From Tritonibacter mobilis (GTDB lineage Bacteria > Pseudomonadota > Alphaproteobacteria > Rhodobacterales > Rhodobacteraceae), in NCBI RefSeq assembly GCF_001681715.1, contig NZ_LNWY01000012.1, positions 310,001 to 374,000 on the forward strand: 64,000 bases of DNA. Reading direction: 5' to 3'. The notes below the pieces were generated by a model. The model was not told the DNA's origin and did not search any database. It worked only from the letters and a program-made list of their open reading frames with translations. Of the stretch, positions 7,989-59,623 are shown in pieces; the first letter of the stretch is position 1, and each line of letters begins with the position of its first letter. The position numbers and the translations under genes were made by a program.

Positions 7989-8016
7989 AAAAGCACGCCA
8001 AACGTGGCGTGCTTTT
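7989..8016 (-). terminator. Intrinsic terminator of the acyl-CoA synthetase gene
   Basis: Perfect 12-bp stem AAAAGCACGCCA / TGGCGTGCTTTT with a four-base loop. The A/T ends give a U tract on either strand. It lies 29 bp after the minus-strand stop at 8045. Confidence 0.88.
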
Positions 8017-17108: not shown

Positions 17109-17625
17109 TCCGCTCCCTCTATTGCTTCCTTGCACTGTGAGAGCATGTGCAACGTGCAAATCCCTCCAAGCAAATGCGTTGAGTGGCCCCACCTTGAACA
17201 AGGTGATCGCTCCGCACCTCGCTTGGAGAACCTGTGGCGAGGCCCGCCTCGCCACAGGTGCTTGCAAGACTTGCAGTTCCCCACCCTGACGCTCGGCAGC
17301 GCGTTCATCGCGTGGCGCGAGCCTGCGACCTCCCACCGATGAGATTGCTTGGCGTGTTCCTTGGCCGCAAATGAGCGTCATCTCAATCTACCCGCCATCA
17401 CGTCAAACACATCCGCTCGCTGCATAGCAGACCATCCACGGCCACGCAGGCCAAGGCGGAGGTCCACACAAAAGGCATGGAGAAAGTCGCGGAGCGGTGG
17501 CTCGGGCTCAGGATGCCATAGCCAAACGCGAGGAACTGGATTGAAAGATCTGTCCCACGGGGCTTTTGAGTGTGGGACAAGCACCCCCTTAAGAGGCTGA
17601 TATGTCTAGCACTTGAGAGAGGATT
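17109..17625. other. Gene-poor region with a perfect 14-bp inverted repeat
   Basis: I find no supported gene in these 517 bases. At 17230-17259 ACCTGTGGCGAGGC and GCCTCGCCACAGGT form a perfect 14-bp stem around two bases. No T tract follows. Several short open frames occur on both strands, but none has a ribosome site and a recognisable product. Confidence 0.5.
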
Positions 17626-26082: not shown

Positions 26083-26114
26083 GGGTCGCGTGAAGACGCG
26101 GCCCTTTCTTTTTT
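26083..26114 (+). terminator. Intrinsic terminator of the DegT gene
   Basis: Stem GGGTCGCG / CGCGGCCC (one wobble) with a six-base loop, followed by TTTCTTTTTT, 29 bp after the stop. Confidence 0.88.
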
Positions 26115-26137: not shown

Positions 26138-26286
26138 CGCCGCGCGTCAGCGCGGCGCCCGGCCCAACTGGCGGCGCCACATCTTGATGTGGCGCCGCTG
26201 GACGGGAGCGCTCCCGCGCAGCTGCAGGACATCAAAGATGTCCTGCAGCCCCTTGGGCCGGGCAGCGCGCCTGCGGCGCGCTGCCC
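26138..26286. repeat. Serial-hairpin array between convergent genes
   Basis: Five consecutive perfect inverted repeats lie in 149 bp: CGCCGCGC/GCGCGGCG (26138-26157); GCGGCGCCACATC/GATGTGGCGCCGC with two-base loop (26171-26198); palindrome CGGGAGCGCTCCCG (26203-26216); GCTGCAGGACATC/GATGTCCTGCAGC with loop AAA (26221-26249); and GGGCAGCGCGCC/GGCGCGCTGCCC (26260-26286). None is followed by a T tract. The octamer GCTCCCGC at 26210-26217 recurs in the arrays at 43.3 and 59.5 kb. Confidence 0.85.
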
Positions 26287-26310: not shown

Positions 26311-26335
26311 AAAAAAGCCCCGGATGATCCGGGGC
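26311..26335 (-). terminator. Intrinsic terminator of phaR
   Basis: Stem GCCCCGG / CCGGGGC with a five-base loop. The AAAAAA at 26311-26316 becomes the U tract on the minus-strand transcript. It is 28 bp after the phaR stop. Confidence 0.88.
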
Positions 26336-29711: not shown

Positions 29712-29740
29712 AAAAGGGCAGGCGCGCGGCCTGCCCTTTT
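29712..29740. terminator. Bidirectional terminator between ampR and the phasin gene
   Basis: Perfect 12-bp stem AAAAGGGCAGGC / GCCTGCCCTTTT with loop GCGCG, between two convergent genes. Confidence 0.9.
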
Positions 29741-43222: not shown

Positions 43223-43378
43223 AAAGGGGGGTGCTCCCGCCCCCTTTTGGTGTTTTGCATGCGCAAAACGCCGAAAAGGCGTTGGGGGTAGCGCCGGGCC
43301 AAAGGCCCGGCGCTACCCCCAACCCGCAGGGCCCAACCGGATCAGGGCATGTTTCATGCCCGCAAGACGGGCGGGAGC
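43223..43378. repeat. Serial-hairpin array with a 20-bp perfect stem
   Basis: Hairpins in order: AAAGGGGG/CCCCCTTT (43223-43247), GTTTTGC/GCAAAAC (43252-43269), AACGCC/GGCGTT (43267-43283), a perfect 20-bp stem around AAA (43281-43323), and GGGCATG/CATGCCC with loop TTT (43345-43361). GCTCCCGCCC at 43233-43242 and its inverse GGGCGGGAGC at 43369-43378 bracket the core. GACGGGCGGGAGC (43366-43378) is the exact reverse complement of 59508-59520. Confidence 0.88.
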
Positions 43379-43553
43379 TTGCCCCGGCCTGCAGAGGTTC
43401 AAATGAGTTTTCGCAAAATGCTCCACAAAAACCATAGGCCATGGGCCGATATGCCGGGGTGCGCAACCTTTTGGTAAGCGATCAGGGAGCACACTCTCAT
43501 AGGTAGATTGGCCCCTTCACCATATCGATCAGCGCCATGAGGAGACTGATATC

Positions 43554-59487: not shown

Positions 59488-59502
59488 CCGAGGAGATAAC
59501 CG

Positions 59503-59623
59503 GGGCGGCTCCCGCCCGTCCCGGTGGCATGTGCCATGCCACCACGCCCGTTGGGCGTGGCGCGTCGCACCCATTGGGTGCGACGCGCGCAGCCGACCCT
59601 CTCGTCGAGGGTCGGCTGCCACC
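59503..59623. repeat. Serial-hairpin array between convergent genes
   Basis: Five inverted repeats in 121 bp: GGGCGG/CCGCCC (59503-59517), GGTGGCATG/CATGCCACC (59523-59543), CCACGCCC/GGGCGTGG (59542-59560), a perfect 13-bp stem starting GCGCGTCG (59560-59588), and a perfect 13-bp stem starting GCAGCCGA (59589-59619). TGCCACC at 59617-59623 can also pair with GGTGGCA at 59523-59529 and close the set into a multiloop. GCTCCCGCCCGTC at 59508-59520 is shared with the 43.3-kb array. Confidence 0.88.

Follow-up and report, generated by a model that had tools for sequence, protein, structure and literature searches.

The three hairpin arrays of the window (the whole stretch of 64,000 nucleotides of the Tritonibacter mobilis genome analysed here) raise the question of what kind of element is repeated in them, whether its structure is under selection and, in that case, in which molecule. 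The original prediction described three intergenic arrays with boxes and long stems, and all of this was found as claimed. The arrays at 43.3 and 59.5 kb do have a 13-mer in common in opposite orientation, and none of the arrays has a T tract; actually, in the whole family there is no A- or T-rich stretch beside the first hairpin. Regarding the stems, the window has 9 perfect ones of at least 12 bp (loop 3-5), 6 of them inside the three arrays, and 20 Markov-resampled windows had none in 19 cases and one in the other.

The repeated unit has the order GC-rich hairpin (hp1), CCCAAC, a helix (P2) and GGCGGGAGC, and a search of the window with a covariance model (R1) gave five such units in the three arrays (Table 1). 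Nevertheless, the arrays do not follow the same module order, as had been thought. The 59.5-kb array is a single minus-strand unit with an extra hp1-type hairpin, the 26.2-kb array consists of two overlapping units placed tail-to-tail, and the 43.3-kb array is a head-to-head pair around a common 20-bp hairpin, whose weaker member scores low but has the constant letters exactly. The octamer that had been taken as the box lies within conserved sequence, but it is only a part of it, CCCAAC and GGCGGGAGC being more constant.

Table 1. Parts of the three arrays, with positions in the window
Feature	Position	Strand	Evidence and remarks
59.5-kb unit core, CCCAAC - P2 - GGCGGGAGC	59508..59555	-	R1 66.5 bits; exact pattern; model match 59499-59563
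59.5-kb unit hp1, perfect 14-bp arms, 1 nt between	59560..59588	-	compensated in G007
59.5-kb second hp1-type hairpin, 13-bp perfect stem	59589..59619	-	loop varies among relatives
59.5-kb unit, inner P2 (hp2)	59523..59543	-	stem search, fold
26.2-kb unit a, tail-to-tail with unit b	26155..26218	+	R1 55.1 bits
26.2-kb unit b, GACGGGAGCGCTCCCGC common with unit a	26201..26265	-	R1 48.5 bits
hp1 of 26.2-kb unit a	26138..26157	+	fold
P2 of 26.2-kb unit a, inner stem 13 bp perfect	26171..26198	+	stem search
P2 of 26.2-kb unit b, inner stem 13 bp perfect	26221..26249	-	stem search
hp1 of 26.2-kb unit b, stem 12 bp perfect	26260..26286	-	stem search
43.3-kb unit a core (model match 43324-43387)	43332..43378	+	R1 44.3 bits; exact pattern
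43.2-kb unit b core, head-to-head with unit a (model match 43224-43294)	43233..43286	-	R1 20.1 bits, weak; exact CCCAAC...GGCGGGAGC
20-bp hp1 common to 43-kb pair	43281..43323	.	stem search
Inner P2 of 43.3-kb unit a	43345..43361	+	read from sequence; fold

According to Pfam, the 26-kb array is flanked by genes for a DegT aminotransferase and a PHB accumulation regulator, the 43-kb array by a DUF2937 gene and an ORF with no Pfam match, and the gene at the 59.5-kb array encodes a glyoxalase-type protein. The ORFs around the 43.3-kb array are divergent, which is an exception to the usual placement of the units. By eye, hairpins with T runs lie at 26083-26114 and 26311-26335, between the 26-kb array and each gene end; since they precede the array from both gene ends, it is flanked by two likely terminators. 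Outside the arrays there are perfect hairpins of 12-14 bp at 7989-8016, 17230-17259 and 29712-29740, two of which have A/T ends and look like bidirectional terminators.

The same layout is found throughout the genome. The 13-mer GACGGGCGGGAGC occurs 20 times in T. mobilis (2 times for a reversed control), and nearly all of these loci show a GC-rich hairpin, CCCAAC, a hairpin and the 13-mer, the exception being L007, where a long insert replaces the second hairpin. R1, for which 15 of these 20 copies were used and only the second hairpin was modelled as structure, found at least 78 places at E ≤ 1 and at least 64 at E ≤ 0.01; these counts are lower bounds because only a small share of the first-look candidates was scored (150 of 3178 and 129 of 3034 in the respective runs). 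Furthermore, the simple pattern CCCAACN{20,50}GGCGGGAGC gave 51 matches in the T. mobilis genome (two of them overlapping at one site), and its reversed control 2. More copies had been expected in this genome and its relatives, and the two genomes with complete match lists contain 64 and 86 at E ≤ 0.01.

When 47 T. mobilis units were compared with their orthologues in G005, another genome of the genus, CCCAAC and GGCGGGAGC were the most constant parts. The inner box letters covary, with pairs such as GGGA/GACG, GCTT/AAGG, GCCG/CGGG, AAAA/TTTT and CAGA/GATG, among others. We anchored the covariation test only on letters outside the tested pairs and applied it to 196 units from loci of many species (270 distinct units collapsed at 80% identity). 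The mean Watson-Crick fraction over 12 positions was 0.504, against 0.292 after shuffling (at most 0.316 in 500 shuffles). At position 1, 160 units have G.G and the remainder mostly a standard pair, position 2 is Watson-Crick in 0.93, positions 3 and 4 are G.A/A.G in 135 and 122 units and mostly Watson-Crick in the rest, and position 5 is Watson-Crick in 0.87 (0.37 shuffled). Positions 6, 7 and 9 stay below half, for which a register shift by bulges is a candidate cause.

In 79 units of 10 other genera, chosen by hand from the pattern-match list, the mean was 0.592, with 0.281 after shuffling (at most 0.329 in 1000 shuffles). The remaining 55 listed rows from outside T. mobilis pair more weakly (0.359 against 0.257 shuffled, maximum 0.318). 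Among them, the 30 rows of genomes G100 and G255 gave 0.321, equal to the best shuffle (0.321), and the G255 type has no pairing in the register of the other units; the other 25 rows, which include several single-match genomes and may thus contain chance matches, gave 0.405 (best shuffle 0.380), with 14 pyrimidine-pyrimidine and 37 purine-purine mismatches. The P2 sequence is free while its pairing is largely kept. Selection on structure, and compensated stems as the test set beforehand for it, are therefore supported by the covariation in the 196 and the 79 units, the exceptions being the 55 weaker rows and, among the G005 orthologues, 20 broken P2 pairs against 26 changed and kept.

Regarding the rest of the unit, an hp1 ending no more than 10 nt from CCCAAC was present in 155 of 193 units, whereas a hairpin of this kind, at any place, was obtained in only 41 of 193 shuffled 60-mers. 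The unit-strand RNA fold pairs both boxes in most of 185 units, by CCC:GGG and C:G, an AA/GC internal loop, and G.G and G.A/A.G mismatches; this box-box pairing is supported by folding and not by covariation, because CCC, AAC and GGCGGG hardly vary. The tail behind the 3' box is C-rich. A third helix, formed by the 3' box and the tail behind it, was dropped, since the real tails fold hardly better than shuffled ones (-10.8 and -10.4, the real tail having the lower energy in 98 of 184).

The P2 helix is polar with respect to the strand. Flanked by Watson-Crick pairs it has 62 G.U against 4 A.C (168 hairpins scored symmetrically; 17 of the 185 gave none), and this bias is absent in hp1 (13:13). 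Positions 1-5 have 439 G.G/G.A against 6 C.T/C.C mismatches, and in the 196 units positions 3-4 have 257 G.A and no C.T. The 79-unit set agrees (18 G.U against 4 A.C; 106 purine-purine against 4 pyrimidine-pyrimidine mismatches at positions 1-5), and in the 55 left-out rows the mismatches at these positions number 127 and 14. With RNA parameters the core has an energy of -21.6 on the unit strand and -14.4 on the reverse strand, the unit strand being lower in 182 of 185 units, 68 of the 79-unit set and 49 of the 55 left-out rows; with DNA parameters the values are -8.8 and -7.9, and the unit strand is lower in 161 of 185.

The loops are also one-sided. On the unit and reverse strands, cGNNAg loops number 32:1 in hp1 and 35:0 in hp2, and the cGNAg triloops of hp1 are biased (21:4), those of hp2 are not (5:7). 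Elsewhere in the fetched sequences cGNNAg is rare, with none among 23 terminator tetraloops and 3 among 50 other tetraloops. In hp1 and hp2 together, GNYA tetraloops (46) exceed GNRA ones (21), and no UNCG was counted. By its title, Nakano 2002, cited in PMC2984261, presents cGNNAg as a stable DNA tetraloop, and a passage of PMC5311481 describes GNYA loops as rare in RNA X-ray structures though able to adopt a GNRA-like fold. Thus, the loop evidence leans to DNA, whereas the number of G.U pairs and the larger strand difference in RNA energy point to RNA.

In order to describe the placement we used gene gaps defined by a home-made gene caller, that is, a non-standard annotation. Units at the edge of a locus (13) or in a long gap (2) were set aside, and a further 36 share a gap with another unit. 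The 145 single units lie in 85 convergent, 55 tandem and 5 divergent gaps, and among 737 control gaps without box-like letters 111 were convergent. The box ends at a median of 38 nt from the stop of gene B in convergent gaps and 24 nt in antisense tandem ones. A copy on the megaplasmid of Ruegeria sp. TM1040, which has an independent annotation, also has convergent neighbours, with one of the stop codons 35 nt away. In tandem gaps 33 single units are antisense to both genes and 22 sense, a bias that is not significant (p 0.18), and by eye the unit direction is mixed within contigs regarding the replication strand. Paired units have 34 head-to-head and 4 tail-to-tail partner matches, with some pairs counted repeatedly. 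The nearest genes form many small clusters, for which reason a gene-specific regulatory RNA was discarded, and by eye no transposase was seen among the largest 14 of these clusters.

An RNA insulator or terminator, in which the transcribed unit strand would fold and stop transcription or set the 3' end before the neighbouring gene, and in convergent pairs would shield gene B from antisense read-through of gene A, is possible but somewhat doubtful to us. It draws on the strand-polar G.U tolerance of P2, the stabler RNA fold of the unit strand, the excess of convergent gaps, the scarcity of divergent ones and the short distance to the stop of gene B, as well as on boxes that change less than their flanks and a P2 that is rewritten across species with its pairing kept (see below). 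However, it leaves unexplained the 33 units antisense to both genes, and the excess of GNYA over GNRA, the lack of UNCG and the patchy distribution also count against it. Furthermore, an intrinsic terminator is a GC-rich hairpin followed by a U tract, and the units, although they too are GC-rich hairpins behind genes, have no U tract and possess a strand-polar core with constant letters. On the 5' side of hp1 no A-rich run, which would be T-rich on the reverse strand, was seen in 167 of 185 units with a scored hp1. Canonical terminators, sought with a simple detector, are neither replaced nor enriched beside the units, with 17 and 11 in 112 convergent gaps with units and 15 and 10 in 111 control gaps. 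With the U tract absent and no link to canonical terminators, we rejected the intrinsic terminator as the identity of the unit.

The convergent placement and the head-to-head pairs would also suit a BIME-like site in duplex DNA, where a protein or topoisomerase binds the palindromes as convergent transcription builds supercoils, and hp1, nearly perfectly paired and lacking G.U bias, is as such a site would be. We consider it unlikely, as it leaves the one-strand purine-purine mismatches and the free P2 sequence unexplained. No link was detected between the polarity and the direction of transcription; the polarity goes with the element itself, and this speaks for recognition of a folded single DNA strand by an enzyme.

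Comparison between species tells more about the history of the units. G005 has all three arrays of the window, and the pairs keep their geometry. Both P2 arms of 26-kb unit b changed together there. The 43-kb array is near-identical, with flanks that align poorly, and in its 20-bp hairpin one stem pair is compensated and the loop AAA has become TTT. The change in this loop (window 43281-43323 against about 364.5 kb of contig C31 of G005) is of the kind expected when template switching inverts a loop. At the 59.5-kb array, gene B is present in 4 of 18 genomes of the genus (T. mobilis, G005, G009 and G007), and all 4 keep the unit.

We aligned 64 T. mobilis units with the unit regions of G005, and 47 agreed at both flanks, 8 at one and 9 at none; the G005 stretches were fetched mostly around model matches, which misses decayed copies, so that the 17 units without a full match are a bound. 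In the 47 orthologous pairs the two boxes had identities of 0.962 and 0.949, hp1 of 0.950 and P2 of 0.872, against 0.898 for coding and 0.835 for noncoding flanks. The boxes exceeded the noncoding flanks in 41 of 44 cases, and part of this excess is artefactual because the pairs required a model match in both genomes. Stem changes in P2 comprised 11 double and 15 single ones with pairing kept, 20 broken and 15 gapped; in hp1, pairing survived 5 double changes and 1 single one and was broken in 9, with 3 gaps. Among box letters off consensus, 118 of 137 are the same in the G005 orthologue, and homogenisation by gene conversion is disfavoured because deviant letters are mostly common to orthologues.

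A reading with no function at all, in which template-switch correction during replication would keep the palindromes perfect and produce compensated changes without selection, finds some support in the AAA to TTT loop and in the several arm bases that changed together at 26 kb. Nevertheless, we regard it as very improbable, since the constant box letters, the deviant letters common to orthologues, the kept purine-purine mismatches and the preference of G.U over A.C in P2 but not in hp1 are all left without explanation.

Two further loci, L038 and L034, were selected from the T. mobilis genome only and read by eye. In L038 the constant letters are recognisable and P2 is rewritten in five species (T. 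mobilis, G007, G004, G009 and G010), and G005 and G001 have another, longer sequence between the flanks. In L034 the unit is present in T. mobilis, diverged in G005 and G007 and found as an inverted pair in G010, and among the six genomes it is absent in G009 and G001; the flanks are too diverged to reveal an insertion site.

Regarding known systems, the units had been described as belonging to no named repeat class. Rfam 15 gave no match above the gathering score at 20 unit loci, its only match in the window being a tRNA outside the arrays, and at E ≤ 1 ten loci gave one match, to MIR7486, with 27.7 bits against a cut-off of 67. We found no account of the family in the literature searched, a coverage that leaves out supplements and most subscription journals. 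Of six box strings only one occurs in it, in two articles titled on other subjects. The element, common to many roseobacters, is apparently undescribed.

Integron attC sites have R boxes RYYYAAC and GTTRRRY at their two ends. The GCCCAAC of the unit fits the former, and the folded strand is antisense to the gene with the adjacent stop, as in attC. However, the partner box is GGCGGGAGC and not GTTRRRY, and ordinary genes adjoin; we rejected an identity with attC because the second box does not fit.

GTAG REPs and REPINs with RAYT transposases (Di Nocera 2013, PMC3733652; for REPINs see also PMC3116915) are short palindromes at gene 3' ends, with letters conserved outside the stem, inverted dimers, heterogeneous stems and a species-dependent copy number. 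In all this the units are alike, and inverted dimers and 3'-end placement were found here, but a GTAG-type tag at one end of the stem was not: the tags are CCCAAC and GGCGGGAGC, there is an extra hairpin (hp1), the P2 sequence is nearly free and most carriers tested have no RAYT. A Y1_Tnp domain (RAYT, PF01797), which in that class is flanked by the repeats, was absent from the T. mobilis genome and from 16 of 18 unit-bearing genomes. It was matched in the other 2 and in 1 of 6 genomes picked as unit-poor, and there were no units within about 1.5 kb of the three matches. RAYT as the driver was ruled out by its absence from most unit-bearing genomes tested.

CGTC REPs resemble the units in their hosts. 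In the part of PMC3733652 devoted to them they belong mostly to Alphaproteobacteria and have stems of 8-9 bp starting with A,T, a loop of 4-5 and, in most cases, CCA as the tail, and its section 6 also admits TGTC or CCTC as the tag. By that account, dominant head-to-head dimers, convergent or unidirectional sites and the lack of a dedicated transposase are common to them and the units. In the commonest unit type CGTC adjoins P2 on the reverse strand, as in a CGTC REP, but here these letters sit in the covarying helix and vary, and are no fixed tag. Other Rhodobacterales motifs are named in passages of PMC8632094 and PMC2864571.

Taking these comparisons together with the polarity, our preferred reading, held tentatively and at a little less than an even chance, is that the arrays are a REP/REPIN-like family of short palindromes recognised as a folded single strand. 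Guide and cleavage sequences are what REP transposases and IS200/IS605 TnpA recognise. By likeness to them, a putative enzyme would read the flanks of the hairpin foot on the unit strand, and copies would have travelled as single-stranded DNA to the 3' ends of genes, sites that leave promoters intact. After the spread, copies would mostly have been inherited vertically and the boxes beside the helix would have been kept by selection, which makes an extra local role likely. The REP-like reading agrees with the head-to-head pairs, the patchy numbers and the more alike copies of Tropicibacter (see below), and locus L034, with units in four species and none in two, also counts for it. Against it stand the lack of a consistent Y1_Tnp/RAYT in unit-bearing genomes, the higher identity of orthologous boxes than of flanks, which is unexpected for idle mobile DNA, an RNA strand energy difference that far exceeds the DNA one, and the even ratios of G.U to A.C in hp1 and of cGNAg triloops in hp2. 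A broader description, of a shape-coded 3'-end element with 15 constant letters and a helix that needs only one-strand pairing, serving either as an RNA insulator or as a substrate of non-Y1 single-strand DNA mobility, is a reasonable possibility, though we would not call it probable.

The analysis names an element that is frequent in a much-studied marine group and for which neither Rfam nor the literature searched gave an entry, and a simple search rule is available, namely CCCAAC N20-50 GGCGGGAGC behind a hairpin. RNA against single-stranded DNA as the selected molecule becomes cleanly testable. If the enzyme is found, this would be a new spreading route for REP-like repeats; if RNA acts, a gene-independent 3'-end device would serve dozens of unrelated genes.

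The spread across genomes is uneven. R1 matched 21 of 41 genomes, T. mobilis included, namely all 18 of the genus and 3 of 7 others of the family, and 0 of 16 sampled genomes of other families. In 246 genomes, one per genus of the family, the pattern had at least one match in 70, with up to 8 per genome in the reversed control, and 19 had counts above 8, that is, over every control; the numbers are patchy, ranging from 0 to 97 per genome. In G255, with 20 pattern matches, most of the 16 listed are of one uniform type, CCCAACGGAGCGAG...CGAGCGGAGGCGGGAGC, which suggests a separate expansion. Among commonest-type units, the inner spacers of equal-length pairs reached a similarity of 80% or more in 5 of 21 pairs in one Tropicibacter genome and 7 of 21 in another, against 0 of 14 in T. 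mobilis, which suggests a more recent spread in Tropicibacter. A wider scan gave at least 116 stretches and, among the matches listed, nearly all bear titles of Rhodobacterales-type genera or MAGs. One record, named Nocardioides marinus in its title (L126; JAHVJD010000003.1, 88001-96000), has a good unit of 62.4 bits; its genes look alphaproteobacterial by eye, and it is probably a mislabelled or mixed assembly.
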